Source: Antitrichia curtipendula (lineage: Eukaryota; Streptophyta; Bryopsida; Hypnales; Leucodontaceae). Taken from it: a stretch of 64,000 bases of DNA. The stretch covers positions 51,474,029-51,538,028 of the forward strand of contig OX579633.1 of assembly GCA_951230915.1 (NCBI GenBank), written 5' to 3'. Shown here piece after piece: positions 6,521 through 46,546 of the stretch. A program made the position numbers and the translations under genes. Each line of letters opens with the position of its first letter. Within the stretch, counting starts at the first letter, position 1. Below the pieces are notes generated by a model. That model was not told the DNA's origin. It did not search any database and saw only the letters and a list, made by a program, of their open reading frames with translations.

Positions 6521-7735
6521 TTAATCCCTAAAGGACCAAATAGTATTTTTTTGGCAATATAGTGATATTGGGCAATTAACTCCAATCAAATTTTTTATTC
6601 TTTTCATTGAAATTTTCACATAACATGTGCCCAAGGAGTAGCTTAAAGGTGCAACCGTTTTCATAACTTTTGACTATATGGTAAAAGAAATTATTGCATG
6701 ATATGTAATTTTTAATGCTTGACGGAATGACGGGTAGCTCGAGGAGCTAAAAAATCACTTTTCTAAGAAATAAAAGTTTGAAATTGGTTTCCTGGATTTA
6801 TATATACATGGAAAGCTTTGAATAATTCCATTTTGATTAATAAGATGAAATTTATGAGGAGATTTAGTTTGAGGGCATGCACTTGTGGAATCTCTATTTT
6901 AAAATGAACTTTGAAGTCTTTATTTAACTCAATTTTGAATATTTTTGGAAAAATATTGAAAATAAAGCACTGGATGTATATTGTTTATTACAACATTACA
7001 ACCATTGGGATTAAAAAATTTTGATTTCCATAACTCAATTTTTAACAATTTAGTATTTTAAATTATACTCTATTTCTTTGTGCTTACTATATTTTTTGTT
7101 GAAATTTTTTAAATGTACTCCCAGCTTATGTCTTCAACATATTATGGAAAGTATCACTCAAGTAGTAGGATCTACACATTTTTGTATAAAAAGTTTGAAA
7201 GATTAAATCTAATCATTTGGGAAGAATTTAAAACATTGTTGCTAGTATGTGAGCCTAGGATCTTAAGCCCATGAGCCTAGGAGCCTAGGCTTCTATGTTA
7301 TAAGTACTTATATTATAGACACCTTCCATAGTTACAGGGTATTTATATTATAGGTGTCTGTGTCATAGGTACCTATATTATAAGCACCTTCCATAGTTAT
7401 AGGATATAAATATTATAAGTATGCATGTTTTAGATACCTTCAATTTTTGTAGATTACCTAGGTATTTACACCTAAGCTCAAAGTTCATAGGCTCACATGC
7501 TAGCATCATTTCTATGCTCTTATGCTAGTGTCGTTGGAGTTGAAAATACTTCTTTTTCAAATCCAAGCAACTTGATCTTGCAGATAGTAAGATTTTTTAT
7601 TCTGAAATTTTGGGAGATTGTATTCTAGTAAGTTAATTAAAAGATTCTACAGTTGAATTTGTTAATAAATATATAAAGGTGAAGATTTTAGTCTTGCTTT
7701 GGATTTGAATACTTTGAAACAATTTAGGGCCTAAA
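6521..7735 (-). repeat. Dispersed TTAA-ended repeat, copy R2, split by a MITE
   Basis: Starts TTAATCCCTAAAGGACC and runs in the opposite block order to R1: the 'GGAAAGCTTTGAATAATTCC' block at ~6811, then a 'CAACCATTGGGATT' block near 7000, then, after the MITE at 7234-7536, a CAAATCC..ATCTTGCAG block resembling copy R5. The right end near 7735 is approximate. Confidence 0.5.
7234..7536. mobile_element. 303 bp Mutator-like MITE with 10 bp imperfect target duplication
   Basis: The left end (CATTGTTGCTAGTATGTGAG) and the right end, read inverted (CAACGACACTAGCATAAGAG), form degenerate terminal inverted repeats. A second inner inverted pair is GTGAGCCTAGG near 7250 and CATAGGCTCAC near 7482. Flanks are GAATTTAAAA (7224-7233) and GAGTTGAAAA (7537-7546), 8 of 10 matching, as expected for an old 9-11 bp MULE duplication. 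The interior has two imperfect ~85 bp repeats around CACCTTCCATAGTTA. The ends match those of the 16 kb element at 9754-25704, so this is probably a non-autonomous relative mobilised by the same kind of transposase. Confidence 0.65.
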
Positions 7736-9217: not shown

Positions 9218-9753
9218 TTAATCCCTAAAGACCCAAGGCCATTTTTTTACCAAAAAACTCTCAAAACTGCTATTTTTATAGCAAAGAGTAAAAAAAAATT
9301 TAAATGTTTTTTTCCACATCTAACCGTAGGATCTTACACCTAATTAGTGTAATAATGTGTGTGGAATTTCTTAAAGAAATTTTGACCGCACAAATTGCAA
9401 CACACCTGCATTTAAAGTGAAAAAAACAAGTTTTTCAGCACATTGCAAGACTAGATTTTTTGACTTAAAACATTTTTAACTTAAAATTTTTGCACTACAA
9501 CATTTTGAGCTTTAAATCTTTATAGTAGAGAATTGATGAGAGTCTAGGGGAAAAAAAAACTTAATCATCATTCTTAAAAAAATTGTTAAGTAGAAGTAGG
9601 TACAAGATAGAAGGAAAATCTAAAATATTCATATATTTTTGATGGAATTAAAATGCACTAATCCCAGTGGTGAGATTGTTCTAGCAAGTAAACCAAACCA
9701 CACAAAAAAAAAAAAAAATTGAAAAATTTGAAAAATTGCATTCAGAAATGAAT
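9218..9753 (+). repeat. Dispersed TTAA-ended repeat, copy R3, left part, ending in the target duplication
   Basis: Starts TTAATCCCTAAAGACCC and keeps the R1/R4 block order (CCGTAGGATCTT at ~9307, ACTAATCCCAGTGG at ~9657). It breaks off at CAGAAATGAAT (9743-9753) and resumes after the same 11 bases at 25705. The two parts add to about 911 bases, the size of copies R1 and R4, which are uninterrupted and colinear across the junction. Confidence 0.75.
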
Positions 9754-9815
9754 GGGGGTGCTATATTGTGAGCCTTGGAGCCTGAGCCCAGGAGCCTAGG
9801 AGCCTAGGAGCCTCC
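9754..9815 (+). repeat. Left terminal and subterminal repeats of the 16 kb element
   Basis: Terminal GGGGGTGCTATATTGTGAGCC-type end (the inverted-repeat core is GCTATATTGTGAGCC), followed by several direct copies of GAGCCTAG/GAGCCTGA up to ~9811. Such subterminal clusters are typical transposase-binding regions; that role here is inference. Confidence 0.6.
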
Positions 9816-10029
9816 AATTTGTGAAGTAATTTTCAGTGATTATAGGTGTTAGGACCCATGACCATGGATTTAGGATTTAGGGTGGAATTATAATTTTGAA
9901 CATAAAAAAATAAAAAAATGAAAGCATTGTAAATATGAAATGGGGCGGTATATCATATAACGGGGAAAAATACCACATAATATGTCCTCAAAATGTATCA
10001 CAGCTATACTAAGATATAGCAGAGAAGTG

Positions 10030-13000
10030 TCATGCAGTATCTTCATAAAGAATACTGCTAGAAGATCTGGAAGTAGACCTCTCATCAGAGTCTGATGACT
10101 GACCATCAGACTCTTTAGTGGAGTCATCTATGAACATCAGAACACGAGGATCTATGGAGCTGATCCTAGAAGGCGGTTTAGAGTCATGGCTCTGGAATTG
10201 TCTAGCTACTGCCTCAGCATACAACGGAAGCTGAAACGGTCTAGGTGGGCTTCGGAAGAATGCAGGATCTGCAAAAAAAGGTTTACGGGTAGAATCCTTC
10301 ATCTGCGCAAGTTGCCTACAAATAGGGACACAACAGAATATTAGTATGGATGAGAAAATGAAATCACATAAGAAAGAATTAAGAAAAATAAAGGCAAACT
10401 TACTTACTAAATCGTGAGGTCTTCACAATATGGCGGACCTCCACTTCTTCATCGTCAAGGTCAGCAACAGGAGGAGCAGGGAGCATAGGTACAGGTGTTG
10501 CGTTCACAGGTATACGGATGAGAGGAGCAAGCAAGGCCTTGAAAATCGCCTTATCTTCTTCTAGGGCTAGAATGTGGCGACCAGTAGCTCGGCAAGCATA
10601 AATGCTTGCCCCTGCAATGATATAGAGAGAACAAAAGAAGACGGATTAGAATTCGACAAAGAGAGTAGAGCGTGAAAAAATCTTCATCGGAAAAAAACAA
10701 ACTAGAACATCTAACCTGTAGACGCGGTGCAGTCCATGACAACGTCACCAGGCAAAGTTGTCGCCTCAACAAGCATCTGCATGAAGGCACGATCCTTTTC
10801 CCGAGGACCACGCCAGGCAATGTTGCCATTCATTGCCACATCGTCCTTCCCACAACAATTCTGGAGAACATCATCCTTGGCTACGTTGACGCCAACTGCT
10901 TCGTGAGCAGGAAGGAAGTGGAACGAGAACTTGGATTTAGAACTTCCACTCCGAGATTTGACATAAAGGGACATGTTGAAACGCATAGTCTGCACAAAAA
11001 TACAAAATTATATCAGATGGCGAAAACAATCAAATTTATGATTAAAACCTCCAAATCATAGAATGGTTTAGGATTTTACCGTTTTGGAGATGTCCGAGGC
11101 TAGAGCCAGGTGAATCCTATTCAAGACGAACAAATCAATCTGTAAATGGTAACCAAATGATTTGGCGAGACTAACAACGGATGACTTGACAGGTCGGCTG
11201 TATAGGTACATAACAAGAAGCCCCCCCCCCGTCGTGTAGAAAGGTATCAGCAAAGTCAAAGACGGCTTGAAGCTTTTCCTCCGAGAACTGATTCCAATAT
11301 GGAACGGAGGCTTCTGGATTGGAAATGCCCGGAACAGGTAGGCCCTCTGGAACATCAACAACAATCAAGTCGACAGCGGGACGCTTGGCCAAAGCGTTGT
11401 CAAAGAATCGATCCTTGCCGGCGGCATGCTGCACACATGAAAAGACGGCAAAGAAAATGAGAGAAATTAGACCAAAGGAGACAAAATCCGAAAAGAAAAT
11501 ATTCAATGACATTGTTAGTATCTTGTCTAGGATCCATAAGTGAAAGTTTGCACAAGTAGGATTCATAATAAAATTTAGACTTACCCATTTCAAGGCTAAT
11601 TGGTGACTCTATGAAATAAACAAAAAACATCTGAAGTGGGGACGCGATGGCATAGATATAAAACATTGTGTCATTGCAAGAGTAGTCTTCCACTGGTTTC
11701 ATCTTTGCGACGAGAGAACACTATAAACAACAACGTTCTGGACCCCGACCAACTCTAACAAACAAGGAGATTGAACCTCCTCTACAAATCAAATAAAAAG
11801 AATCTCAGAATTTAATGAACACGAAGCAAAAATCAGGGCAACGTCTAGAAACTTGTAAATAAACCATACAACTGTACAAGCAAAAAGGAAATATACAAGG
11901 AAAAAGAGGCACCACCTTGTTTAAAAAAGCCACAACAAAATCGATGACGCCAGGAGAAGGACCATTGTCGACTCCAAGTAAACTAGAGACGGACTCATTC
12001 AAGATGCACTGATCGATAGGAGCCACCGAATCCAAGTCAACAACATGGAGCGGCAAGCCACGCATCAAGCGCTCCTGGGTGAGCGAAAATCCTGATGAAG
12101 ACTCCTTCATAGGGCCATCACTTGTCGCTTGTTCGGCATTTGGTGTCTCTGCTTTCCTCTTCTTCCCCTTTTGCTTGCCCTTGGCCTCATCTTCCTTGGC
12201 CTTTTCCTCTTGTCGTAGTTTCTTCTTCTGTGCTGTCTCCTCCGTCCTCTTCGTTGTCTCTTCCCATTTCATCTCCTTTTTCTTATCGGATATTTCACGC
12301 CTCTTAATGGCCTTCTCCCGTGCTTCACCGTCCATGCCAGCAAATTCGTCAAACTCGGGCTCTACCACTGCACTTTCCTTGATATTGCTGAAAAGAGCCA
12401 ACTCCTGGGGGGGGATGTAACCCTGGCTGCACTCCAAATACCAAGCACCGGCTTGGAGGTGACCGCTGGTCCAGTTCTTCACTTGAATGGCCGAGAATAT
12501 ACAGTCGGGAGATGAGCGATCGAGCCATGTGTTGAGGAAAGGCGGCAAATCAGCCTTGGCGATGGCTTTCTTTGCATACAATTCAAACTTGAAATACGTG
12601 GAGGACCATAAATAATTCATCAAGAAAAGATGATTAAAGGAATAACAATCTCAACACAATATCCAACAAAACCCAAAGAGGCAAAGTAAATACCTATAAA
12701 TTATCCTCTTCACCACAAGGATAGAGCCTTTGAAGTCTTTAAACGAGTCTGACTTCTTGAAGGCGTCGGCCCCCTTAAACACTCCCACGAACGCATGCTC
12801 CCACAACCTCATCCGCCAACCTTCTATGTATTCTTGAATAGACTCAGGCTCCGCGGCTGCATCCATATACACCTGAATGTTGTCGGCTCGGATAATGCTG
12901 TCAAACATCTCAGAGGCTTTATCCTCAATCTGTAGAATTGACAAGAGATTAGTCAAATATGGCTCAAACTAAATAAGAGAAATCGATAAATGCGATGGAA

Positions 13001-14795
13001 ATGCACGATGCATATGAACAACATACCGCAGCATACCAACATGCCTTCGATAAGAAAGAATTGAGTTTGTCGTCATTTGCTGGACGTTGTGGAAAGCGTC
13101 GGGCCTCACGGGTGGAAGCGGATGAATTAATCCACTTCAACCATTTCACCTTGTGGTTGACATGAGCATTTGATGTAGCTATTAGTTGTAGCTTGTCCAA
13201 GGTCAGCTCCGGAACAGTATACAGACTCCAGTGTCGTTCGATCTAATAAGAAGCAAAATCAGTTTAGTGAACTCAAAACCTGATGAAAATCAATCACTAA
13301 AGTGGAGAGGAGGAAAGCTCAGCCAAAAAGTAGAACAACGAAATAGAATAGAAGAAATACCTCCAGCAGCCACTCATCACCTAACGCAGGGTTGGCGACG
13401 GCGACAATCTTGGATAGCTTTTTGTAGAGATTACCAGTTGCATCCCTGGTAGAAACACGTATAGCTGCTGCCACGCCTTCGTTTGTGACCTCCTCCGTAG
13501 GTGTGTCTTCATGATACTTGCGGACAGCAAGGTCCGAAGCTACCGCAATCTCTTGCTACAAAAAATTGTTCTCAGTTAACACATTAGACAATTTCTGGTA
13601 CATGAGAACATGAAATGGAGTTGAAAATGTGATAAACAGCCCAGACAAGAAAAACCAGAAGCATAAAACAAAATCTTACCTGAAAAATGAAAGACGTGAA
13701 GACCTCAAGAGGCATGGAGTACCAGGTCTTCCGTGTGTTCTGCTGGCAGGTCTTCTGTTCCTCTTTGCTAAGAAGGTCATTGAACTTCTCAATGGGCAGG
13801 GTACCGTACTTCCGAACTCGATACAATGTATGCACCAGATTAGTCTTTACGTGCGAATTTTCGGTGTGCCTAAAGTGAAAAAAAGGTCAAGTTAAATTTT
13901 AGGTGGGCCTGAAGGAAAACACTACAAACATTAAATTATGAAATGGGAATGAGACTCACTTGTTGATGTCATGCATGACCTGCATCGTGGCTCCAACTCG
14001 TCCTCTGGTATCCAAAATGATTGAATCCACACTTATGTGCCAATCCAATTCATCACCATGCAGTCGAGAAATATGTCGCATCCGTGCTATACGCCTGTGG
14101 TTGCCGTCGCACACGTAGAATTTTGCACCTACCGGAATTTGGAGCTCTGGAAGTTCCCCCAACTGGACATTGAAATCATCATTGACAATGTTCCAAAAGG
14201 GACCCCAGTCGACCTTCTCTGCATCTGAGAACACTCCCGAGCGCCCTTCCTCATCTGAAACCGACACATAGAAAACACGAGCTCCCTCCTCATACCCATG
14301 GACGAACTCCTGTTCCAATTTAGTCAAGTCACAAGACAATGTAGGCCTTACCATAGGCATGGGCACCAAACGGCACAAGGGGATTCTCATGCGAGAGAGA
14401 TTGGCCGGTGCAATACGCAAACTGGATATTGTATTCACAAAATCCAACTTCTGCGCTGCCCGTATAGCATCTTCACCTCCCGCAAACTTCCCCGAATCTG
14501 GTGCATAGCCCTCGCCTATATCCCCATTTGCCTCGTCGGAACCCAGTATCTAAGGTTGGTCATCAGATAGTGTTTGATCCGATGTAGGAGCTGCTGATGC
14601 CGAGATGACAATACCCTTTTCAACATACAAGCACAAGAATGTAAGGATCGAGATCGAACCAGAAAACGCACAGTGATACACAAACTTAAGTGAGTAAATT
14701 ACAAAGAACACAAGAAGGAATAACTCGCTCCCGATTTATACCTCTTCGGTTATTGCAGTGCCTCCGACCATATTCTCTTCTGGTACCTCCACCAT
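10030..14795 (-). CDS. Composite ParB-like / beta-class DNA methyltransferase-like gene, 12 exons, probably frameshifted
   Basis: Exons (high to low): 14795-14742, 14549-13960 (or from 14615), 13869-13680, 13555-13361, 13242-13027, 12929-12714, 12587-11916, 11720-11585, 11428-11080, 10989-10716, 10611-10404, 10315-10030; nearly all junctions are GT/AG with matching phase, introns ~70-220 bases. The ~1,130-residue product starts MVEVPEEN. Near residue 170-190 lies FYVCDGNHRRIARMR, the core of the ParB/sulfiredoxin nucleotide-binding fold. Around 590-640 a Lys/Glu-rich helix ends in KGKQKGKKRKAE, a likely nuclear signal. The last third has methyltransferase motif IV as VVDVPEG (usually DPPY), a DGGGLLVMYLYS strand, then motif I as GDVVMDCTASTGAS (usually DPFAGSGTT) and RHILALEED. 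IV before I is the beta-class order. Both motifs are degenerate, so catalysis is doubtful. Breaks: a G10 run at 11221-11230 (nine would keep frame) and an unresolved frame change in exon 11585-11720. An upstream noncoding exon is likely because CAG precedes the ATG. Confidence 0.7.
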
Positions 14796-15029
14796 CTGAG
14801 TAATGTACATGAATTACAAAGAGGAATTAGTTCTAAGCCGATTAAAACTGGTGAATGACAATACTGGAACATTCAAGAAAGAGGAGAACAACATAGATTA
14901 GCTAGGATCAGTCAGACATGGTAGAGAAACCAAGTCCTAATTGAAGAAGCCTAAACTGATCGTGTGTGTTCCATCAAGGCGGGGTAGAGTTGTTTCTCTC
15001 GTTCATGAGATGACGGAAGTTATTGGTAC

Positions 15030-18000
15030 TTGGAACGTGACGAAGAACGGGATCAAGAGAACACCTCAACACGTGAAGGACTGGGCCATATGAACTGATC
15101 ATCCCCGAGATTGTGATCTGGTTTAACGTCTCTCGCTAACGAGAGCTCCCCCGACCGATTCTACTTGTGGGTTGAGCACCGTGAACAAAAAATATTGACT
15201 CAAAGGAATTACAACCACGACATGAATCGGGGGTGAGGACTTTGGAACCTGTCCCGAGTGGGGAGCCTTGCTTGTTCTCTCTCGCCGACGAGACGCTCTG
15301 GCAAGGTCAGATTTCTTGGGAACGATACACGCGAGGGAGAGGCTGAAACCAGCGTGCCTCGTTCCGGAATTACGTCACAGAAAATCTATCGGTGACATAA
15401 AGCTGGGCTGAGACATATGGTGGCGGATAAAGAGAATCCCGGACGCCTCAGCTCACGAATTCTCCGCCCAGCTGAACCGATCAGCCCCGAGATGGTGATC
15501 TCGTTTCTTGTCTCTCGCTAACGAGAGCTCCCCTGACCGATTCCAAATACGAGAAGAGCGCCATGAACAAAAATTATTGACTCAAAGAAAATACGACCAC
15601 GACAAGAAGCAGGGGTGAGGGCTTTGGAACCTGTCCCAAGCGGGGAGCTTGGAGATTCCTCTCTCGCCGACGAGACGCTCCGGCGGGGTTAGATTTTTTG
15701 GGATCGATACACGCGAGGGAGAGGCTGAAACCAGCGTGCCTCGTCCCGGAATTCCATCACACAAATTCTATCGTCGCCCTAAAGCTTAGGGGAGGCATAT
15801 GGTGGCGGATAACAGGACCCCATGGACGCCTCAGCTCACAAATTCTCCGCCCTGATGAACCGATCAGCATCGAGATGGTGATCTCGTTTCTTGTCTCTCG
15901 CTAACGAGAGCTCCCCCGACCGATTCCAATTACGGGAAGAGCACCGGGAACAAAAATTATTGACTCAAAGAAAATACGACCACGACAAGAAGCGGGGGTG
16001 AGGGCTTTGGAACCTGTCCCGAGCGGGGAGCTTGGCGATTCCTCTCTCGCCGACGAGACGCTCTGGCGGGGTCAGATTTCTTGGGATTGATACAAGCGAG
16101 GGAGGGCTAAAACCAGCGTGCCTTGGCCCGATGTTCTATCACAACGAAACTATCGTCCCCTAAAGTTGAGAGGAGGCATACGATGGCGGAGAACAGGCCC
16201 CCATGTACGCCTCAGCTCACGAATTCTCCGCCCAGCTGAACCGATCAGCCCCGAGATGGTGATCTCGTTTCTTGTCTCTCGCTAACGAGAGCTCCCCTAG
16301 CCGACTCCACTTACGGGAAGAGGACCGTAAACAACAAATACTGTCTCAAAGATAAAACGACCACGTTAAGAAGCGGGGGTGAGGGCTTTGGAACCTGTCC
16401 CGAGCGAGGAGCTTGGCGATTCCTCTCTCGCCGACGAGACACTCTGGCGGGGTCAGATTTCTTGGGATCGATACACGCGAGGGAGAGGCTGAAACCAGCG
16501 TGCCTCGTCCCGGAATTCCATCACACAAAATCAATCGTCGCCCTAAAGCTTAGGGGAGGCATATGGTGGCGGATAACAAGACCCCATGGACGCCTCAGCT
16601 CACAAATTCTCCGCCCTGATGAACCGATCAGCTTTGAGATGGTGATCATGTGTCCTGTCTCTCGCTGACGAGAGCTCCCCCGATCGATTCCACTTACGGG
16701 ACGAGGACCATGAACAATATATATTGACTCAAGGAAAACACGACCACGACAAGAACCGCCCTTGAGGACATCGGCACCTTTCCCGAGCGGTGAGCCTTGC
16801 AGGTTCTGTCTCGCCGACGAGACGCTCTGGCGGGGTCAGATTCCTTGGGAACTAAACACGCGAGGGAGTGGCTAAACCCAGAGTGCCTCGTCCCGGAATT
16901 CCGTCACTGAAAATCTATCGTCGCCATAAAGCTGGGCTGAGGCATATGGTGGCGGATAAAGAGAATCCCGGACGCCTCAGCTCACGAATTCTCCGCCCAG
17001 CTGAACTGATCAGCCCCGAGATGGTGATCTCGTTTCTTGTCTCTCGCTAACGAGAGCTCCCCTGACCAATTCCAAATACGAGAAGAGCGCCATGAACAAA
17101 AATTATTGACTCAAAGAAAATACGACCACGACAAGAAGCAGGGGTGAGGGCTTTGGAACCTGTCCCAAGCGGGGAGCTTGGAGATTCCTCTCTCGCCGAC
17201 GAGACGCTCCGGCGGGGTTAGATTTTTTGGGATCGATACACGCGAGGGAGAGGCTGAAACCAGCGTGCCTCGTCCCGGAATTCCATCACACAAATTCTAT
17301 CGTCGCCCTAAAGCTTAGGGGAGGCATATGGTGGCGGATAACAGGACCCCATGGACGCCTCAACTCTCGAATTCTCGGCCCAGCTGAACTGATCAGCCCC
17401 GAGATGGTGATCTCGTTTCTTGTCTCTCGCTAACGAGAGCTCCCCTGGCCGACTCCACTTACGGGAAGAGGACCGTAAACAACAATTACTGTCTCAAAGA
17501 AAAAACGACCACGTTAAGAAGCGGGGGTGATGACATTGGAACCTGTCCCGAGCGGGGAGCTTGGCGATTCCTCTCTCGCCGGCGAGACGCTCTGGCGGGG
17601 TCAGATTTCTTGGGAATGATACACGCGAGGGAGGGCTGAAACCAGCGTGCCTCGGCCCGATGTTCTGTCACAACGAAACTATCGTCCCCTAAAGTTGAGA
17701 GGAGGCATACGGTGGCGGAGAACGGGACCCCATGTACGCCTCAGCTCACGAATTATCCGCCCAGCTGAACCGATCAGCCCCGAGATGGTGATCTCTTGTC
17801 CTGTCTCTCGTTCACGAGAGCTCTCCCGACTGATTCCACTTACGGGAAAAGGACCATGAAGAAATAAATATTGACGCAAAGAAAATTCGACGACGACAAG
17901 ACTCGGGGGTGAGGACATTGGCACTTGTCCTGAGTGGTGAGACTTGTAGGTTCTCTCTCGCCGACGAGACGCTCTGATGGGGTCAGATTTCTTGGGAATG

Positions 18001-18945
18001 ATATGCGCGAGCGAGTGGCGTAAACTAGCGAGCCTCGTCCCGGAATTCTGTCACCGAAAAACAATCGTCATCCTAAAGCTGAGCTGAGGCATATGGTGGC
18101 GGAGAACAAGACCCCTTGGACGTGTCTGCTCGTGAAGGCTCGGGCCACATGAACTGATCATCCCCGAGACGGAACACTGGTTTGACATCTCTCGCTGAAG
18201 AGATCTTCCCCGAACAGGTGCACTTACGTGATGAGCACCGATAACCACAATTTCTGACTGAGAGAAAAGACGAGCACGACCAGATGCGGGGTAAGGAATT
18301 TAGAACCTGTCCCGAGAGGGGAGCTTGGCAATTTCTCTCTCGCCGACGAGACGCTATGGAGGGGCCAGATTTCCTGGGACTGGATTGCCCGGGGGAGTGG
18401 CTTAAATCAGCGGCCTCGTCCCAAAATTCCGTCGCACATTATCTATCGTCGTCCTAAAGCTCCACTCAGGGATTTTGGATCCGGGAACAAGACCTAATGG
18501 ACGCCTCAGCTCACAAAGGCTCGGCCCAGCTGAACTGAACTGCCCCGAGATGGTGCACTGGTTTCACGTCTCTCGCTAACGAGAGCTTCGCCGACCGGAT
18601 CCTCTTACGGGATGAGGACCGTGAACTACAAATCGTAACTCAAAGGAAAGAAGAAAACGACCAGAAGGGGGGGTAAGGACTTTGGCACCTGTTCCGAGCG
18701 CGGACCCTGGATGATTCCCTCCCGCCGACGTGAGGATGGTCGAGGGTCAGATATCGCGGGACCAATACGCGCGATGGATTGGCCGGACAGAGTGCGTCGT
18801 CTCGAAATTCAAGCACGACCAAATAACCGTCTCCCTAAAGCTGAGTCGATGGCTTGATGTGCCGATGAACGAGACCCAGGGGACGCCTCAGCACGTGAAG
18901 GCTGCGCGGAGCTGAGCTGATCAGCCCCGAGATGGTGCAACGATG
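15030..18945. repeat. Tandem array of ten ~382 bp GC-rich units
   Basis: The anchor TCTCGCTAACGAGA or a variant occurs at 15131, 15513, 15896, 16277, 16660, 17042, 17425, 17806, 18190 and 18571, giving steps of 381-384 bases. Each unit has a second related hairpin, TCTCGCCGACGAGA, about 149 bases later. The array is visibly richer in G+C and CpG than its surroundings. It starts just upstream of the methyltransferase-like gene and ends at the 5' region of the transposase gene, so it separates two divergent promoters. Outer units are the most diverged. Repeated 60-68 codon frames inside it are a by-product of the repetition. Confidence 0.85.
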
Positions 18946-19500
18946 AGACGCAGAAACCCTAACGAGAAGCTATACCGGAAACTGAACCCTAGGAGAGACG
19001 GTTCTTTCTCTTCCTTTGCTGCAGCGGTAATCGGCAACCCTAATCCTTTACTCGCGAGGCTGGATGTGCGGAGGGGACATCATCTTCACGGGATTGTTCC
19101 GGGGGCGGGGACATCTTGCATGAAATCGAAACCTCAAGATCGCACCGTGTCCTAAACCCCTCGACACCGAATTCCAAAGCGACTGTCCAAGCTTGGGGAA
19201 TAGCGGATGGATGGAAGCGAAACTAACCTCAGAATCCCCCGCTTGGGGATCTTGTTGCAGTACAACATGGACGGCGGTTGCTGGTGTCCTGCGGCGAAGA
19301 TTTGCTCTCCCGCTCCTCGTGTCCATTTCGGCAGCCTGCAAAACCTCGATCCGTCGTCAGTTTGACTATGAGACGAAGAGCATGGAGGTATCGAATTCGC
19401 GTGGAGGTATCGGAAGAGGTTCTCGGATTTCAAGCGAAGTACCGTCATCGACTTGAGAACCCTATCTCTCTGTCCGGTGTCGGGTGGATGAGAATCAACA
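18946..19500 (+). promoter_or_regulatory. GC-rich probable promoter/5' region of the transposase gene, with telo-box-like motifs
   Basis: Right after the last array unit, GC-rich sequence holds AAACCCTAA (18955-18963), GAACCCTAGG near 18983, CAACCCTAATCC near 19036 and CCTAAACCCC near 19153. AAACCCTA telo-boxes are common in plant promoters and 5' leaders. Several short overlapping frames lie here on both strands, none convincing as an exon. Location and composition are the only evidence. Confidence 0.35.
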
Positions 19501-20596
19501 CTGCTTGACTTTTTTAAAGGTTATGTGCCCCTAACTATTGTTCTCCCATACTGTAACAGCCTTGATTTAGAGCATAACACAATTCAGATCAAGCATCTGT
19601 CATCTTCACACAGGGAAATTCTCAAACAAATCGACTTAGCATATAACTTAGTAAGACTGGGCGACTGGCGTGCAGATTTTTTATTTATTTACAGAAATGA
19701 TGCCCTGCGTTTGGGCAGCCTCATCAACATCACGATTCCTCTGCATAAACGGGTTATTAGAATTTGCTGATTCTCCAAAAAGGGGCTTGTCGAGGATTGT
19801 TCCTTCCTGGATGTGCTCCCCCGTCCCAAATTTTGGATCCCTACTTAATAACACCTTCCGTGCTTGTTTCGACCTAGTCATTCTAACTCTCCTTAATTCT
19901 CTGGAAGTAGAGAAATACAGCTTACTTTTTCTTCTCTTGCATCTCTTTCCCCTACTTGAATCAGTGCTTGATGTTGATGGTCGCATTAGCATCTAAGAGA
20001 TCTGCTCCACTACTTTAGTTCTATGAGATTACATACTGCAGGACCTACTTTATATTTGAAGCTACTGGACATCATCATCATCAATTTTGAAAGAGCTTTT
20101 CATTCCTCGATGTTACCATTTATATGGTGGGAGGCTGTCTTCTGACGTAATGAATCGTAGTACATGCCAGTCATTGTCATTACTTATCATTCACAAATCT
20201 TATATTTCCCTGATGGAGGATATCCGTTTCCGTGGGAACTCTTTTTAGGTTACCTAAATTGATCTTAGTGGATTCTCATATTATACTGATAGCCTTATTT
20301 ACCTTCATCCGCTATACGTACACAATTACATATTCGTCTAAATCATTAATACCTTTCCGTCTAAGTATTGGGATCGTATTCATGATTCATATCTTCTATG
20401 ATTTTGTAGAAATCAAAGGCCTTCATTGTGCGCTATATGTAGGTTCTCTGATACATGTCAGTGCAGACTAAAATTTACAATTGCTTGGATCACGAAATCT
20501 CATGTTCACTGTCATTTAATTCGAACGTATGCGCCGCTACTCTGGAATTTGAGTATTCTCATGTGCAATCATATTCAAATTACTTTAAGGTTATAG
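19501..20596 (+). other. 5' leader or unresolved first exon/intron region of the transposase gene
   Basis: AT-rich, with no domain-bearing frame. The transposase frame at 20597 opens with TTG, not ATG, so its true N terminus probably joins an upstream exon here or in 18946-19500. I could not choose a join. Confidence 0.3.
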
Positions 20597-23500
20597 TTGA
20601 ACATCAAAGACCTCGTTCTATATACAGGTCTTAGGTTCTCAAGTCCTGACCGATATGTTTGCCGGTTTTTGGTTGTTATTTTTTTTTCCGTACTGCCTCA
20701 TTTCTTGAATTGTGGCATCAAGGCTTCCATTAGAGCTGATGGATATGAAGTTCTTCTTCTTCTGCGTCTGAATGCTGATGGTGTAGCAGAGATTACAAGC
20801 CACTTGATTCATGTCCGGTATGGTTTCTCTCAGTGCTCAATCTACGTCGAGGAGGAGATTCTATCAGAGTCGGGAACTCTTCTTCACTCTGTTCTTATGT
20901 CTAAGACTCAAACTGACCAAGGGAATTTGTGGATTCTGCCAATGGGTCGTTACAGAGCATTTGGATTGTTGTCTAATGTAATTGCTGCTTCTTCAGGTTT
21001 GTTGACACCACAGTCTGATGCATCAACTGCACAGGCTCCGTTTCTTAGAGTAGTAAAAGTCGAGTCAGGGTGTCATCTTCAGTCATATGATGGGACGGGA
21101 AGCGGTAACGTTCCTGTACCTCGAGAGGGAATTTCAAGTCCAATAGTTGAGTTGTCAAGCGACTCCGAGGACGGGATGCCATATATGAGTCGTAGTTCTC
21201 CAACGGTATCATTCCCACCAGAAACTTCGACAATGCCTTCTGCATCTCAGTCTTGTTCTCTTCGTGAAAGTAGTCCTGCTAGTTCGAACCTCTCACGCCC
21301 TCCTCTCTATCCAAGTGGTCATTCATTCCCTAGTGTGATGCAGTGCATCCATAAACTGGCAAGTATTAGAGGGTCTAGAAATGAGCTAGCCCATCTCAAT
21401 TTTAAAACCATTGATCACCAGAAGGTCCAGTTCCTCCCAACGAGTTTCGATGGTGATATTGTTTTTGAACTGCCTCCATGCACATCATCCGCTTCTTCGT
21501 GTTCTTCTAAGAACATGAATGGCATGGATAAACGCTACGATGGTCATACTTGGTGTCGTACCATGACTTCAAACATTCACAATGATTTAGGTTTGAAATT
21601 TAAGAAGTCTTCCTGTGCTGGTTACTTGGCTTGCAGTAACAGTGCCTGCGATTATTTGAAGAGGTGTTCCAAAAGGAACGAATCAGAGTGGATTGGGAAT
21701 ACTAGTACTCCATTCCAAGTGGGGACGAATCCTCCTAAAGATTCTACAGTAGTTTGTAGAGTGTGCAAATTGACACCGACTTGTATAAATTTCTGTGACG
21801 CTCGAATTTACTATGTTATTGGTGTGGCTGATATGACGAGGGCTTGCATTCATCTAGGAAATCATAACCACCCTGTCGTAGATGGTCTGTGTAGAGATTC
21901 CATTAACACCATCTCTGGACTCATCGAGAAAGAAGTGAAAAAGGCTCCTACTGCTAAAGCGTCCGCCATTGCAGTGTCTGCTAGTAAAGAGTTTTTGGAC
22001 ACATTCCTTGTTCATGCAGGTGACGGCCCGAAGGAAATGCTAAGAGGGAAGGCCTTGGATGATGTTATGGACAAGTTCCAGGTGCTCAGTTCGCCAAACG
22101 TTCGGAACATCATTGCGTCCTTCCGCAACACCGGCAGTGGAGGAGAGGAGATAGATCGCATATTGGCAATGAAAAAATAAGCGAAAATGGAGTTCATTCA
22201 TGACAGTGTATTCCCTGAACAAGGACAAGAGAAGGTGTACCTTTTCAAGATGCTCGTGGATGGCCCAGGCAGCGGAGTTGACCTCGTCAGGCGGATGCAA
22301 GTAGGAGGAGATCTGGCCAATTCTTGGCTCATGTTTGATCATGTCAAACGTGTCAAAGGTTGGACAACTATCGCTTGCCATGTTTACGACTCTGCCTATT
22401 GCAAGGTGATGACAATTGCAGTATGCGATATGCAGTCAGAAGATACAGAAGGTCAAATCATCATGTGGCGTTGCCTTAATCGAGTGATGGAAAAGAACGG
22501 CTTCCCGAATTCTAACTTCAAAGGCTTCATGGCCGATGGTGCTCAAGCGAATTGGAATGCTGTTCGAATCGTGTACGGCACTGGCAACCCGAAGGACAAG
22601 ATGATTGATCGGGAATGGACGTGCCTTTTTCATTGGGCAACCTCCATGAAGCAACACACTGAGAGACTTATCAAGCGGGAGTTGCAATGTCAACATGTTC
22701 GGCTATGTAGATCATACAAGGATGCAAAGACATTAGAGGAGGCTGAAAGTAAATACTTGCAGATCAAGGCATGATGGTACTCGTCCGGTGCAGCATCTAC
22801 TGAATCTCTGAGGGAGCTTGAGCTCTGGTTGGCATTCTGGCACTTCAGATATCGACAGTGGGGTGGTTTCATGGAAACGGTTAGTTTCTTACTTTATTTA
22901 AAGTACTTCACACTTGCTCAAGATGACTACAGGCTGAGGTTTGATTTCTGTGTTATATATAACATGACGTCTTTAAGTCTTGCAGGAAATGTCCTCAGAT
23001 GAATTGGCTGATATGCCTTCTTGCAATTTATCTGAAACAATACACAACAAGTGGCTCCAAGCATCTGGGAAGCGCGGCACAGACTTATACATCGCGACAT
23101 GCGACGATTGGGTGAGAGCTTTTATGCAGATGACAAACTTTCGAGTGTACCTAAATGGCGGCCCGTCTGGATTCGGCCCATCTAGGCAGGACTTGAAATT
23201 GAAGAGGGCAGTTGCATCTATGGATGGAAAGAGAATCACCGACGCCCTATGTAGTATGCCCGGGGCTAAGGAGGTTTGCACGCGCATACCTCATTTGGAA
23301 GGAGAGGAAGTCTTTGGTTCCTCTAAGCGTCCGGCTGATGTACCTATTGGGTCCGAGGGTGATTCTCATCGCCTGGACAAGGTCAACTTCTCCCATCCCC
23401 GAGTGCAAAGTAGATCTACTGATCTTTCAAATGCAAATCAAGTTGATGCTACTCCTGAAATCCCTCATGTTAAGCATGTACTTGAGACTGATTGTGACCC

Positions 23501-24359
23501 TTCAGAATGGCACATATCTCGTCTTTCTGTGAAGTCTAAGAAGAAGTGTCATGCCATTCAATCGCAGACAGAAGTGAAGTGCAAAATGACCATAGTTAGG
23601 GGCTCCAGAGCCACTGCTGCTCCAATGTATAAGGGGCAGAAGCGCGAGTTCAAAGGCACAAGAGTGGAGGTAGACGAGTTCTGGTTCTGCCCGGACGACA
23701 TTAAGCGTTGCGTGATGGGACCTAGGAGGTCTCACGTCCTTAGTCGACCACGAATCCCAAATATTTGGCCAGTGTCGATTGGCACGGCCCTCACCTCTGA
23801 GGAAATTATTCTCTTTGAGGAGGCAGGGTTCCGCCTCCAGGAGCGTCCGTCTATGTCTCCAAGACGCCTATTCACTTCCTCCAACCTTTTTGAGGTTATG
23901 GAATGGACTTATGCAAGACCACCTCATGCTGACAAGCCCCCATGTATTCGGAATGGAAAAAGCATCCGGAGGAATGACAGGGCACCAACTGATGATCACC
24001 GCAACCAATGGGAGAGTGCCAGGAATGTGACCGGAATTATTCTTGGTGTGAACATCTTGCCGTATCCGGGACTTGGAGCTGTCATCACTCTACAATCTGG
24101 CGTAGAACCTCACCACATGATATATCGCATCAGTCTCTGCAATTTCCCAGCTTGCACGTGCCTGTACTTTACCGGTATGATATCTACATCCATTGGGAAG
24201 CGAGGGAAGTATGTCAATTGCAAACATTTGTACTACATCTTCCGGTTTTTGTGCAAGTCCGACTTCAAGAAAGACAAGTTCATTCATGCTCCAAGCATGA
24301 GTATGGATGAAGTGATGATACTTCTTCAATTAGCGGGGATGATTAAAAACAATGTTTAA
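20597..24359 (+). pseudogene. Mutator-like (MULE) transposase with zinc cluster and SWIM finger, two in-frame stops
   Basis: One frame runs 20597-22879, then an intron 22880-22985 (ACG|GTTAGT ... TTGCAG|GAA, phase 0), then 22986-24359, about 1,220 codons. A Ser/Pro-rich N-terminal part is followed by a GCM/WRKY-FLYWCH-like zinc cluster (~21540-21875: WCRTM, CAGYLACSNSACDY, CRVCKLTPTC, ending HLGNHNHPV). The MULE core follows: VYDSAYCKV with the likely first Asp (~22386), FMADGAQANWNAV with the second (~22531), and CLFHW. Near the C terminus ACTCLYF...NCKHLYYIF (~24150-24225) is a SWIM CxC...CxH finger. Stops: TAA at 22178-22180 and TGA at 22772-22774, both inside conserved continuous frame and not removable by an obvious intron. 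The start is unresolved; the first in-frame ATG is near 20898, though similarity-like sequence extends upstream. It would cut and move elements such as the one it sits in. Confidence 0.8.
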
Positions 24360-25704
24360 TATTGCAGTATGAGGGCTAGAATATGCTATACTAGAATACT
24401 TAGAATTTGGATGACTCTATGTATCCAATTAGCAGCAAATGCTTTTAATGTATGAGCATCTTTCTTGAATCTGTCGATTCTTAAAAAAATGCAAGTATAT
24501 CCAGTATTTCAGTTTTTATCTTTTGTGACCTGTTTGTGCATATTCCAAAGTGATTCATGAATGCAATGTGTGCTTTCAATGTGTCATAAATACTAAACCA
24601 TGTATGGCATTAAATTGAATTTTTATAGAGACTTGGTGCCAAAGCACGTATACTGAATATACAATATAAGCTAAAAATGATCCGTTCAAGAGTTTTTTTA
24701 ACACTTACCCGTAGTAATCTTTTCTAAACTGCGCCAAGGTCTAGCGGCCGAATTAGACGTCTCGGTACCAAAAGAAGGATTTCAGGGGGGTATCTTCGCG
24801 ATAGAATCCAACGAGAAATTTGTAAACTGCTCCATACTTTTGTGGCTTCATTTGGCGTCTCAGTACCAAAAGCATAATTTCGTGAGAGTAATATTTGCCA
24901 CAAATCTTTAGGAATCCCATTACAATCTAAAAAAGGATAATCTTTTTGGTCCTCTGGATGCACGATTAACACTGAATTTTAAATCCTGTAAATCACTCAC
25001 AGGATCATCCAAAATGCAGGAACAAAAACTGCTACACTTGTGGGCCCAAGTGTCTCGATTGGGGCCTCAAGTGCTATATGTGGAGGTCCAAAGTGTCTCA
25101 TTTGGGACCCCAAGTGCTACACAGGGTTAACACTAATCCGCAGGTATTGTGAACAACTACTCTAAGTCCTTTTACATTAGTTTATTTCGAAAATTCCAAT
25201 TCTGTGTTGTATCCCTATTAATAAATGAAATGGCAATAGACGTCATCACGAGAAATAATTTTTAGAACTTAAAAACATGAAGTACCTAAAGTAAAGAGGG
25301 ATGTAATTGTCTACTACAATGATGGGTGGCAGTCAACTCACGCCGATCTTAAGCTTGCCTAATCATGTATCTAAAGTATTCTTATATTAGCTTATATTTA
25401 TAATTCCAATCAATATGGGATAATCAAAGGTCATTGTTTGATATATTGAATGTACCTATAAAAAATGTAGAAAGCAAAAAAATCATATTCTGAATCTGTT
25501 CATAGATCCACGGTAATAGGTCCACGGCTGCAAGTCCGCAGTCATAGGTCCACTATTTCTTACCTAGAATTTTTAAATATATTCGGGTTTTTTTTCCTAA
25601 CACTAATAAATTTAAAAGTTATTGAAAGTCAATCTTTGGGCTCACAAAATGGACGCTCACAGCTCTTAAGCTCACAATTCTAGGCTCACAAACTAGCGTC
25701 GTTG
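24360..25704. other. 3' region and right subterminal part of the 16 kb element
   Basis: No further gene. It holds a pair of related segments near 24750 and 24860 (each with GTCTC-G/A-GTACCAAAAG), an imperfect 42 bp direct repeat at 25041-25122 built on CAAGTG/CAAAGTGTCTC, AT-AGGTCCAC-type repeats at 25505-25553, and GCTCAC repeats at 25638-25690 leading into the right terminal inverted repeat. The 82-codon minus-strand frame at 24724-24972 covers the internal duplication and is not called as a gene. Confidence 0.5.
25640..25704 (-). repeat. Right terminal and subterminal repeats of the 16 kb element
   Basis: Read inverted, the end is CAACGACGCTAGTTTGTGAG. The CAACGAC-CTAG outer part matches the right end of the MITE at 7536 and the inner part matches the left end at 9760. 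GCTCAC recurs four times in the last 70 bases. The target duplication follows at 25705-25715. Confidence 0.65.
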
Positions 25705-26079
25705 CAGAAATGAATACTAAAAGTTATTTTTTTCAAGAAGATGCTCTAACTTCCCGAAAAACAAGAATGTCCATAACTTTCTCATAACAAATCCAAATGA
25801 AATAAATCAAAGCTTTCCAGATAGACAAAAATATATTCTACGAGAAAAAAATATTAAAAAATTCAAATTCAAATTTTTCAATTTTTTTTATGCTGCCTAG
25901 GCTGCCCACCGTCCCCTATTTTGAGCTTATTTGGTCATAACTGTTGTTCCCGGGCACCGATCGTGGAAAAAATTATCTTCAAAAAAAGTTTCAAAAAATC
26001 ACAATAAAAATTCAGCCCGTAAGTACCTGCCCAAAATCCCATTTGTCCCCCGAAGGGACAACGGTCTTTTAGGGGTTAA
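25705..26079 (+). repeat. Dispersed TTAA-ended repeat, copy R3, right part
   Basis: Resumes the repeat after the insertion. A block containing AAAGCTTTCCAGATAGAC (25820) aligns with AAAGCTTTCCACATATAT of R1 and with a TTTCTATATAGAC block of R4, and the copy ends GTCTTTTAGGGGTTAA at 26079, the inverse of the left end at 9218. Confidence 0.7.
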
Positions 26080-26499: not shown

Positions 26500-29400
26500 T
26501 CATGGAGAATTTGTAGCCAAGCTGGCGTCCTGGGTCAGGAACTTTGATTGAATGTCTTCAAGCTTGTGTACGACTTCAGCCATAGTTGGCCGCAGTGACG
26601 GTGATGGTGAACAGCAACCCATGGCCAGTTTCAGTGCCTACCCAAACAAACCCATTGATGAAATCCCGTTTCATTTGTTTCCAAATAAAAGAAAGAAAAG
26701 AAAAGAAAACCAAACCCATCACTGGAGACTACAATCCAGTTATAACTTAACAGCGACTTCCTAGCAGAACTGTTACAAATTTACAACTTAAGAGCAGCCC
26801 CACAGCAACACGCCACAACTGACCTCTAAAGGTTCTATACCATTGAGCTTTTATGATAGAGGAATGCCCTCTGTTGATTTGCTTGAGCGTGTTGCTGTAC
26901 GGGTGCCCTAAGAAGTCGTTTCTTATGAGTGCATCTAATGCATCCAATTAAGCTTAATATGAGGAATTTTCATTACCTCCAGTAGTCCATTCTCTGCGGG
27001 CACACAGATACTTGGTTTCAGCAACTCCAGATCCAGCACATCACACAGGCGCTCCCCAAGAATGGCAGCATTCACAAGCTCTTGTAGAACAACAATTGTA
27101 TCACTGCCTGACACTTTTCCGGGCTTTTGTCCGGTTAGAATCTCAAGCAGCACAGTGCCGTAGCTGAAAACATCAATGTGAGTTGAGAGTCTCTTTGATT
27201 TCCTCAACTCTGGAGCTTTGTACCTGGAAATCTCAACAGAGAATGGGTGAGATGATACTACTTAAAACCAAACGCATGAAGGACCTGATCCAATCTTATC
27301 CATGGTGTGTAAGCAAGACAAGGCTAGACTAGACAATGGGCCATTGATCTTTGAATGGAAATAAGGGACTTGAACATAATTGTCCCTAATTGGGAAATGT
27401 TTCTACTGAACTAAACCTTTACAAATTCTTGCCTAATGTGCAACTTCTCCACATATGGAGAACCATAGATCTATTTGACGTAAATCTATTTTTAGCACTT
27501 TGAAAATTCATAGTTGATCCAGAGAGTGTCTAAGACATGCTTGCTAAGAGAATCTAAAAAATTCCTTTTTGACTCCCAACAAACCATTGAGCAAAACAAT
27601 GGTAGTTTAAATTGAAAGAACGTTGAGACCCAAAAGTGACCCATGGATGATTTTCAGGATTACTGTAGACTGTAGACATGAAGAATGCACCTACTGGTTT
27701 GAAAATCGGATCATTTTTGATAAAGTACCTTAGTCATGGTTCTAGGGTTAAGAATCAAAGTCATGCTTATTTGGACAATTTTAGGTCTAGTTACCTCACT
27801 GCCACTTGCTGCCACTTGCCGAGGTCTGCTTGCTCTTTGCATGTTTACATAAGAAACCATGCATGCTGAAAGCTACTTGATCTCTCAAGAGAATTTGGCT
27901 CTTGTACCCCCAGTGATCTCCACACCAGTGATCTAACCATGAAAGTACACTCCTTCCTAAAATTCTTAAAGACTGATGGGAAGAAAATAGAATCCTGTAC
28001 CATAACAATCGAATGAAAGACTCATGAGCATTCAGGAAGCAATACAAGACAATGTGCTATGGACCTGTTTTGTTTTAGGATTTTAGAGTTTGAGGTTCGT
28101 GCAAGTACCCCTCATCAGCTGCGTGAACGACCATGCTATTTGTTGCTGCGGGAGTTACGAGGAGATGGAGTCCGTAAGACGTCAGAAGCGCATTGTGATG
28201 TTCATCGACTAAGATGTTGGAAGACTTCAGATTCGCATGCACAAGTGGCTCAAGGTGCAAGTGCGCAACGCCTTGGGCTATGGTGAGCGCCAGCTTGTGT
28301 CGCTGCGTCCAGTTCAAGGTGCATTCACCTGCTTACTCACCTCACACTTTATTAGAACATCGAGAAATTTTTAAATCCTCAGCAGTTTTTAGGGATTAGA
28401 CCTAGTTTGGATTGATTGAACCATCCGGAATTTTGAGGATCCTTTGCAGTTTCAGTGAGTAAACTTGGTTAGAACATCCAGGAATTTTAGAATCCTGTGT
28501 AGCTTTGTTCGATTAGACCTAATTTGACTTGAGTGGATCATCCAGAAATTTGAGAATCCCGAGCAGTTTTTGTGACTAGACCTAATTGGCTTGATTAGAA
28601 TACCCAGAAATTTTTAACATCGTGTACATTTTTGTGTGGTTAGACCTAATTTGAGATCAGTGTTTACCATGAATGATATCAGCGAGAGATTTGCCAACGA
28701 TGTGATCGTAGATTAGCAGCTTCTCGTTTTTCCGACTCAAATAATAAGCTCGCAACGGGACGAGGCTCGGGTGCTTGACAACGGCCAGTCGCAGGACGCC
28801 TTGCAGAAACTCGGGCTCCTCTCTTGCGACGTTGTCTTTGAGCAAGCTGAGCGACAGCATGTGCTTGTTGCTCGGTAGCCAAGCGCGGTAGTGTCGGCCA
28901 TAGCTTGTTTCCTCCAGCAACTACGTCAAAACATGTCACATGTACTGTAAGCAGACTACCTTGGACCGCACACTTCAAGTTTCAAATGGTTTAGCAAATT
29001 CAAAATTGGCGTGAAACTCCCTAAAGCTATTGATGATGGAGTCTTAAAACCTTTCACAAAAAATTAGTTCAAGAATCATAAATGTCTTGTGATTTACGAT
29101 GAACGGGCAAAATTTTCACAAAGAGAATGCTTCCCCTTCACTGCACATTCACCTCACGTAGTTATTCTCACTTGTACTAGAAGTTGGTGACTCAAGAACG
29201 TTTCTTGCAATTGAACTATAGTCGATTTTCTGGATAAAATCCATAAGGTAACCAACTTTCTTGCTACGAGAATGAATTTTTCTTGCAATAGTTTTGCGCG
29301 GTTTGTTCAGAGAAGGAGAAATGTGCGGTCAATGGCATGTCTACCTTGTATCATCCTTTTATTTTTGGTTTAGGGTTTGAACAATCGTAGTGACAATCAT

Positions 29401-30603
29401 TCGGAAGATAATTGATTTCACCTCACTTGCAGACTTGAGCACGATGTCTTCCGTGAGAGCCCCCCCGACACCCTCGTAAAACTGCACGAGCTTCCCTTGC
29501 GGAAACTTCGCCTCGTCGTTACGTGCTTTCTTCAGCAAGCGCATTTTCTTCAGCAACAACGCGTACATCGACAACGTGGTCAACTGGAAAATTCCATAAA
29601 AAAACAGCACAATGCAGAACGCCACCGCGGTGATGAGCAGCGTGATGGCAGTCGGATTCATCAGATCTCTGTGTCTCCGGTGTGTCGTCACCATTGTATG
29701 AAAACACGGCGTTGGCAATGGAGGTCCACACAGCCATTGGGAGTTTCCCTCAAACACCCGAGGATTGAATCTTTCCTTGAACGAAGGAATCGGGCCCATG
29801 AGATGATTCCCGGCAACTGTGAATCCCCGATCTAGGGAGGTGCTCAAATTGCTCAGATTCGCAAATTTCATGGGAATCACATACGTAAACTTGTTGTGGC
29901 TCAGATCAAGCCAAGAGAGATTTGCAAAGTTTGCAATGAACAGAGGGATGGTTCCCGAGAGGGAGTTTCGACCTAGCGTCAAACTTGTGAGTGCTGAGCA
30001 GGTGGTGCCCGGTCCCCCTAGGGGGAAAGGAATGGAGCCGCTGAAGTTGTTGTTATGCAGCAACAGAGTGGTGAGTTTGGATCCCCTGCAGAGGTTCCAG
30101 ATGGACACGGGGATGGTCCCCGTGAGCAAATTCTGCTCTAGAGAGATGACGCTCAGACTAGGGTTGTTGCCGAACTCCTTTGGGATGGAGCCCGTGAGCT
30201 TGTTGTTGCCGAGGGTGAGCTCCTTGAGCCCGTAGAGCTTGGCGATGGCGGGGCTGAGCGTTCCTGTAAGACCGGCTGATGGGAGAACCACGGTGGTGGC
30301 GACTGCTCCGAGATCAGTTGCGTACGTGAATGTGAATGTGTAATACTCTTCCTCGCAATTGAACGGGAAGCTCGCCTCGTGCGACCACGTTACGCCCTTC
30401 CATGTGCACAGCGGGGCGGTGATGTTCCAGCTGCTGAGTACAGGGTGGGTGGGGCTATCCAGGGACTCTTTCAGTGCGAAGAGGGTGATGACGTCGGGCG
30501 CTAAGGCGACAGCAGCCGTTGTTGTCGTTGCGGAAACGTAGACTGCAATGAAATTGCAGAATGTCAGAGCTTGGAGTACCTTCAGGTGCCCATACCTGTC
30601 CAT
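26500..30603 (-). CDS. LRR receptor-like pseudokinase, TMKL1-like
   Basis: Five exons: 30603-29422, 28920-28668, 28328-28109, 27223-26977, 26637-26500, all GT/AG with matching phase, giving ~679 residues, about the size of Arabidopsis TMKL1. The ATG at 30603 is preferred because MDRYGHLKVLQALTFCNFIA makes a good signal peptide; an upstream ATG would only add a charged extension. Then come ~6 leucine-rich repeats (~120-290), a membrane segment (AITLLITAVAFCIVLFFYGI) and a protein-kinase-like domain. That domain lacks the active residues: the beta-3 lysine is absent from HMLSLSLLKDN, the HRD loop is HAN (LVHANLKSSNIL) and DFG is SYG. EETSYGRHYRAWLP, DEGYKAPELRKSK and ALKLAMGCCSP follow the TMKL1 pattern closely. 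The product should sit in the plasma membrane and signal by scaffolding, not phosphorylation. Assignment to the TMKL1 clade is from remembered family sequence, not a search. Confidence 0.88.
28350..28660. repeat. Intronic minisatellite, ~64 bp unit, about five copies
   Basis: Within intron 2 of the TMKL1-like gene, the block (A/G)AACATCC-AGAAATTT...GATTAGACCTAATTTG recurs at about 28353, 28418, 28471, 28535 and 28597 with 10-25% divergence. The last unit ends next to the splice donor of exon 2. Confidence 0.6.
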
Positions 30604-30699
30604 GTTGCAATCGAATTGCCCTACAGTCTGTGTACCCTCGAACCTCGTCAAGGTTGCAAGCTGGGGTCCCAACTTTTTCACTAAGAAATTTAGAATTGT

Positions 30700-46228: not shown

Positions 46229-46496
46229 TTAACCCCTAAAGGACCAGCCTGCTATTTTTAGCAACATAGCAATTTTGGGGAGGTAAATGTGACTAGATAT
46301 TTGCATAATTTAGGCCCAAATATTAATAGAAGTTGTGGACAAGGAATATCTTTTATGTGAACAAAATTTTATGACATTTGGATATACAAGTAAAAAGTTA
46401 TGGCCTAATATGTTACTTTTTCAACAAGCATGAAGTCCGGGCAGATTTCAAAAAATCACTTTTTAAAAAAATAAAATTTTGAAATTGTTTTTCTAG

Positions 46497-46546
<50 letters not shown>

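Follow-up and report, generated by a model that had tools for sequence, protein, structure and literature searches.

What is a block of some 16 kb, with two divergent genes and a long tandem array between them, doing in the middle of a dispersed repeat of the moss Antitrichia curtipendula, and what might the second of its genes do for it? We addressed these questions in the 64 kb stretch of DNA that holds the block (C1:51474029-51538028 of a 400 Mb assembly; hereafter the window). Our analysis shows that the block is a recently active two-gene transposon of the Mutator superfamily (IS256-type), ~15.5 kb in length, in which the transposase gene is accompanied on the opposite strand by gene 2, coding for a ParB-like and a methyltransferase-like part. 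We further propose, at about even confidence and from sequence comparisons and structure models, that gene 2 encodes a self-recognition factor of the element with an anti-silencing outcome.

An insertion into an older repeat

The 11 bp word CAGAAATGAAT occurs exactly twice in the window, at 9743-9753 and 25705-25715. An earlier note on this DNA had taken it for an 11 bp target duplication, placing the limits of a single large Mutator-like element at 9743..25715, with degenerate inverted ends just inside. Comparison of 11 copies (described below) upholds the insertion, its exact duplication and its inverted ends, and revises their extent. The base preceding the terminal GGGGG is C in 10 of the 11 copies and T in the window, and the opposite end, when reverse-complemented, also begins with C. 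With this C counted as part of the element, all 11 copies have exact target duplications, nine of 10 bp and two of 9 bp. Since the window has T in place of the C, the 11th matching base is a chance match: the duplication here is the 10 bp CAGAAATGAA, and the element itself occupies 9753-25704. Its ends are 22-bp degenerate inverted repeats with GCTA..TTGTGAGCC common to both, 15 of 22 positions matching by eye if the C of 10/11 copies is used; such repeats are absent in some Mutator-like elements (MULEs). Beyond the left one, GAGC subterminal repeats extend up to ~9812.

The outer flanks are colinear with dispersed repeats at 1.65 kb (R1) and 38.05 kb (R4), as the earlier note had also seen in joining them into one repeat (R3). 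The left flank scores 144 against R4 (200 shuffles: mean 16, maximum 23) and 61 against R1 (maximum 26), the right flank 62 against R4 (shuffle maximum 26) and 39 against R1 (maximum 20). Across the junction, the flanks can be aligned with two further repeat copies at scores far exceeding those of shuffled sequences, and the block is therefore an insertion. The identity of R3 and R4 is only ~66% and the right flank is not picked up by blastn, hence this dispersed-repeat match is old. A chance match of 11 bp, or an ancestral identity without insertion, is excluded by the recurrence of the ends at 10 other fetched places with duplications of their own.

A recently mobile family bearing probable marks of silencing

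The first 601 bp of the element match 41 places in the assembly, 38 of them near-complete; of these, 14 match at 96-100% and form subfamily 1, the other 24 at 91-94% and form subfamily 2. These counts are lower bounds, with 40 of 166 first-look candidates scored. The last 600 bp match at least 40 places (40 of 244 candidates scored). Of the 38 left ends, 34 have a like-oriented right end no more than 60 kb away, 29 of these pairs spanning 12.2-19.0 kb; four left ends and six right ends are unpaired. Ten subfamily-1 copies were fetched and, together with the window, form our copy set. All ten are complete from first to last base (the first 30 bp of one contain small indels), measure 13.6-19.0 kb, have distinct flanks and contain both genes and the array. 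The co-inheritance of genes, array and ends proposed in the earlier note, along with the search for further copies that it advised, is thus borne out, and neither separately inherited parts nor a junction without insertion turned up.

Copies c01-c09 diverge by 0.6-1.4% from their majority, indicating that the family moved recently. Their decay has a distinctive signature: private substitutions are predominantly transitions at C or G (338/453, 75%, on the gene-2 side; 494/614, 80%, on the transposase side), and within c01-c09 these transitions reach 3.1-3.6% at CpG positions and 1.3-1.4% at other C/G positions, as against 0.11-0.14% for A/T transitions. Such a pattern is as expected of cytosine methylation in both CG and non-CG contexts; hence, the host probably does silence copies of the element.

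The transposase places the element with Mutator

The predicted structure of the transposase displays a DDE-type RNase-H fold closest to that of ISCth4, an IS256-family transposase, which gives the only Foldseek matches at or below 1e-3 and also the top Z. The IS256 family is the prokaryotic kin of Mutator. The N-terminal fold is WRKY/GCM-like, and a SWIM-like CxC..CxH motif was noticed by eye only. The element's 9-10 bp duplications fall within the Mutator superfamily range, given as 8-11 bp for MULEs in the passage available from PMC6446971. Together with the pairing of ends, these observations support the single large Mutator-like element of the earlier note. What can be said for a placement outside the superfamily is that no Pfam family matches the query transposase, and no MULE family was found in the 9 of 67 homologues scanned; set against ISCth4 as the sole match at that threshold and duplications of the expected length in every copy, we find such a placement very hard to credit. 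The likeness to MULE/MuDR extends over the catalytic fold, the duplications, the degenerate ends and the opposite-strand second gene, the last known in some MULEs according to the literature passages available; it may also include the N-terminal fold and the SWIM-like motif. The differences lie in the size, the lack of a Pfam match, the ParB/methyltransferase type of the second gene and the central array of 382-bp units. Searches of phage sequences found nothing matching the first transposase frame, those of viral_contigs no relative of the transposase or gene 2, those of genome_contigs no relative of gene 2, and no Rfam family reached its gathering score.

We assessed the genes separately in each copy, leaving every copy unrepaired. 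The window transposase has in-frame stops at 22178-22180 and 22772-22774, neither present in the 10 other copies, and the frame is free of internal stops in one of the 11. A reassigned genetic code is ruled out as the explanation, the two stops being private to the window copy while other copies have other stops.

Gene 2 joins a ParB-like to a methyltransferase-like part

The second gene, already singled out as unusual in the earlier note, can now be named by its parts. Its exon lengths and splice sites are kept across copies apart from scattered damage, and one of the 11 copies, not the one with the stop-free transposase, has it without stops or broken splice sites; the window copy carries one frameshift, at a G run (11221-11230). 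The starts of both genes are provisional in our models. There may be an additional small exon between 11915 and 11429; a trial exon at 11779-11705 was dropped as it has no GT donor. Across copies, the G run in the methyltransferase exon varies from ~7 to ~20 and is interrupted in some, giving rise to frameshifts; at this site GGTGGTGG-type sequence is seen in two of the three subfamily-2 copies.

Databases contain at least 390 homologues of the second exon, with identities of 52-68% among the 120 listed. The frames of most aligned homologues end where the window exon ends (as does the query), and the few that continue differ from one another. Its structure model (predicted local distance difference test, pLDDT, 71; predicted template modelling score, pTM, 0.67) has Noc and ParB as its first Foldseek matches, and ranking by Z puts only ParB, Noc, KorB or PadC in the top 14 rows (8.1 to 6.9); sequence profiles give weak matches (DndB and DGQHR 0.002-0.1; phage ParB family 0.06). 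We accordingly describe the predicted N-terminal fold as ParB-like.

The C-terminal exons match PF01555 (N6_N4_Mtase) with an E-value of 1.7e-4 and 22.1 bits, under the curated cut-off of 26.7; against CcrM (6pbd) they reach 9e-5 over residues 18-228 and, as a profile, 2.6e-4 against DpnA. The canonical beta-class motif IV reads D/N/S-P-P-aromatic. At this position DVPEG stands in the window, in 6/6 other copies translated and in 6/6 homologues covering the site (of 8 found). Given this conserved replacement of the catalytic motif, we class the domain as methyltransferase-like only.

Both genes bear the imprint of purifying selection. Between c01-c09 and c10/c11 the fixed changes amount to 5 non-synonymous against 14 synonymous in gene 2 and 5:16 in the transposase (ratio of non-synonymous to synonymous rates, dN/dS, 0.10 and 0.09), as against dN/dS of 0.50 and 0.55, respectively, for copy-private changes. 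Between gene 2 and three subfamily-2 copies (left 5.4 kb only, 10 codons excluded) there are 48 non-synonymous and 133 synonymous changes, again a dN/dS of 0.10, with 0.13 for the ParB part, 0.08 for the middle and 0.09-0.10 for the methyltransferase part; introns in the same comparison diverge at 17% of sites. The low values in all parts indicate that gene 2, methyltransferase part included, has been kept through rounds of transposition. A passive captured fragment is ruled out by this ratio of ~0.1 between subfamilies and by the wealth of second-exon homologues.

A comparable gene is known from the brown alga Ectocarpus, where the giant DNA transposon Sola1-1_Ec32 has an opposite-strand ParB-methyltransferase gene, whose product is suggested by the authors to bind the sequence of its own element and to modify it epigenetically; the citing passage also names examples from green and red algae (Iyer 2011, Petroll 2025) (PMC12477816, in the passages available). 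By these descriptions, the two elements share the strand arrangement, the ParB-like N-terminus, the N4/N6-type methyltransferase, a length of ~1,100 aa and the setting in a giant DNA transposon; they differ in the transposase (Sola1 there, Mutator/IS256 type here), and the conserved DVPEG, the palindrome array and measured selection are particular to the present account. This resemblance raises the alternative that gene 2 encodes a methyltransferase, active on adenine N6 or cytosine N4, that binds and marks its own element, as proposed for the algal proteins. The match in domains, strand and size to the Ectocarpus protein (1104 aa) and the conservation of the methyltransferase part between subfamilies speak for it, whereas the invariant DVPEG, together with a motif I region (DCTASTG) that departs as well, makes it rather unlikely. 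Binding of DNA or S-adenosylmethionine, or interference with methylation, would be a likelier activity of this part than methylation of adenine.

An element-only array filled with palindromes

All 11 copies have 4.1-10.1 units of the ~382-bp array. A genome-wide search with one unit, in which all 19 first-look candidates were scored, gave 113 matches, every one of them within one of 16 element copies, though diverged units of subfamily 2 would mostly escape this query. The array described as satellite-like in the earlier note is therefore a tandem array that moves with the element, and not a general genomic or centromeric satellite. In the copies C8:11476412-11525429 and C9:14167506-14186548 the array matches are split into two separated blocks, which suggests nested insertions into the array.

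The window contains 20 sites of the form TCTCG-N4-CGAGA (at most one mismatch), as against 0.63 expected, the 20th being at 14997-15010, and the 12/12 copies examined have 9-20 each. Near position 1947 of the element, within an intron of our gene-2 model, 11/12 copies have a further site, the window being the exception. The palindrome was first spotted by eye in one unit, after which all 14-column windows of the unit alignment were ranked: its two positions come out ahead of all other non-overlapping windows (0.979 and 0.964). In a second ranking, over 369 windows of one reference unit, the palindromes come 2nd and 16th in the window copy, 3rd and 15th in c02-c09, and 1st and 15th in c10/c11, many neighbouring ranks being overlapping windows and no subfamily-2 unit being projectable. 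Both arms are intact in 9/10 and 9/10 window units at the two positions. Compared with six units from a single subfamily-2 copy, the window units average an identity of only 0.51; the palindromes nonetheless score 0.925 and 0.90 and once more take the first two places among non-overlapping windows.

These features invite two further explanations. The array could be an enhancer, or a promoter, read by a host factor, with gene 2 acting elsewhere. Its position between divergent genes, its GC-richness with undepleted CpG (observed/expected 1.02) and other unit 14-mers equally conserved within subfamily 1 would suit this; we consider it quite improbable given the retention of two per-unit copies of one palindrome at 51% unit identity, in an element that also encodes a ParB-like protein. 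Alternatively, gene 2 and the array might belong to the transposition machinery, with the protein, much like bacterial partition complexes, bridging the array so as to hold a very long element together for transposition, or maintaining excised circles. A ParB-like fold, repeated palindromic sites, the great length of the element and selection on gene 2 equal to that on the transposase are compatible with such a role, yet copies with arrays of anything between 4.1 and 10.1 units have all inserted, and the 1.9 kb next to the left end is free of palindromes in the 12 copies scanned; we thus deem it unlikely.

A putative self-recognition and anti-silencing system

Taken together, the selection on gene 2, its ParB-like fold and the retention of the sites in a fast-changing, element-only array argue that the protein recognizes its own element. 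Three analogues, each represented by the passages available, lead us from there to self-recognition with an anti-silencing outcome: (i) in Arabidopsis, the VANC proteins of VANDAL elements, which remove methylation and bind to motifs within noncoding tandem repeats that diverge rapidly (PMC5735166, PMC10398659); (ii) the Ectocarpus ParB-methyltransferase; (iii) DIRS1 retroelements, which carry an N6-adenine methylase predicted inactive (PMC3537659). With VANDAL the present element shares the Mutator type, an extra gene and fast-evolving tandem repeats of short motifs in noncoding DNA and introns; it differs in the ParB/methyltransferase parts (our Pfam search found no VANC-type domain in gene 2) and in that anti-silencing is here only putative. 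With DIRS1 it shares a methylase domain predicted inactive in a mobile element, whereas DIRS1 is a tyrosine-recombinase retroelement of unrelated mechanism, and a ParB part goes unmentioned in the DIRS1 passages.

Briefly, we advance the following mechanism. The ParB-like part would bind the TCTCG-N4-CGAGA palindromes that fill the central array, plus the gene-2 intron site in most copies. From the array, the protein might then keep the two divergent promoters open against host cytosine methylation, acting like the VANC proteins though built from unrelated parts. A more specific and more tentative version, to which we give appreciably less credence, likens the system to ParB-parS: a ParB/pseudo-methyltransferase would load on the array and spread, or recruit others, to undo silencing, making it a second independent invention of the VANC type.

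Several observations weigh against this proposal. The ParB model is of middling quality (pLDDT 71), its best Foldseek E-value being 3.3e-3 (prob 1.00, TM ~0.35) with none at or below 1e-3, and a PDB profile search with the ParB exon returned chance matches and no ParB. In the second ranking, the 14-mer ACGCCTCAGCTCAC takes first place in the window units and, with one other 14-mer, stands above the palindromes in c02-c09; in two of the three groups the lead goes to a 14-mer other than the palindromes. Both arms are intact in only 41/59 and 43/58 units of c02-c09, and in 5/10 and 6/10 of c10/c11. The subfamily-2 units were cut at one palindrome, the other, 150 bp off, being unused for cutting. 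Within subfamily 1 the methyltransferase part has three fixed changes, two of them non-synonymous, too few to judge, and the transposase against a single subfamily-2 copy gives a dN/dS of 0.25, that copy's own decay included. Finally, the reported ParB-methyltransferase relatives are proposed to be active methyltransferases (PMC12477816, in the passages available).

ParB-methyltransferase genes of transposons are already known from algae; going by the titles, abstract starts and passages of a mainly open-access literature, in which we found no such gene in a Mutator-type element, the Mutator host, the DVPEG motif and the array of sites are new here. The family hence adds to the algal cases a second transposase superfamily, strong selection, a conserved non-canonical motif and a predicted site in an element-only array. 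With it, the escape of large transposons from plant cytosine methylation can be tested directly using a single protein and a single 14-bp site.

Other features of the window

Table 1. Coordinates of the element, its parts and a short relative (window positions)
Feature	Position	Strand	Remarks
Whole element	9753..25704	.	15,952 bp including terminal base; both ends recur in 10 fetched copies
Left target-site duplication, CAGAAATGAA	9743..9752	.	Word search and copy comparison
Right target-site duplication, CAGAAATGAA	25705..25714	.	Word search and copy comparison
Left terminal inverted repeat	9753..9774	+	First base T here, C in 10 other copies
Right terminal inverted repeat	25683..25704	-	GAGC subterminal repeats internal to it
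Left half of older dispersed repeat entered by element	9218..9742	+	Alignment with other repeat copies
Right half of older dispersed repeat entered by element	25715..26079	+	Alignment with other repeat copies
Transposase gene	20597..24359	+	Exon 20597-22879 (start provisional), intron 22880-22985, exon 22986-24359
Gene 2	10030..14795	-	11-exon model, ~1,080 codons, GT-AG introns, phases consistent
Gene 2, exons 1-6	14795-14742, 14549-13960, 13869-13680, 13555-13361, 13242-13027, 12929-12714	-	Model
Gene 2, exons 7-11	12587-11916, 11428-11080, 10989-10716, 10611-10404, 10315-10030	-	Model
Gene-2 exon with ParB-like domain (...KFYVCDGNHRRIA...)	13960..14549	-	Homologues and fold match to ParB/Noc
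Gene-2 methyltransferase-like exons	10404..11428	-	DVPEG in place of motif IV; DCTASTG in the motif I region
382-bp tandem array	15091..18937	+	10.1 units, between the two divergent genes
Palindromes TCTCG-N4-CGAGA	15131..18584	.	Two per unit, ~150 bp apart; 19/20 window sites
303-bp non-autonomous relative, like a miniature inverted-repeat transposable element (MITE)	7234..7536	+	Same kind of ends, GTGAGCC... and ...CTAGTGTCGTTG

The 303-bp relative is flanked by an imperfect 10-bp duplication with 8/10 positions matching (frequency 0.0009 among random pairs), and adjoins another copy of the dispersed repeat at 6749-7096. A reverse-strand copy of that repeat at 62943-63765 has its two matched parts wider apart than in R3, and thus possibly contains an insertion of its own; another reverse copy of R1, at 46234-47185, is 74.6% identical over 959 columns and includes a TA dinucleotide run (46500-46543). 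Two open frames on the reverse strand, one with leucine-rich repeats and an LRRNT_2 domain (29362-30738) and one with a RING-H2 finger (31935-32816), are probable host genes and, like the decay at non-CG cytosines, point to a land plant. An inverted pair of 416 bp, 92.5% identical, at 41163-41578 and 45379-45791 possibly represents the ends, or copies, of another element.

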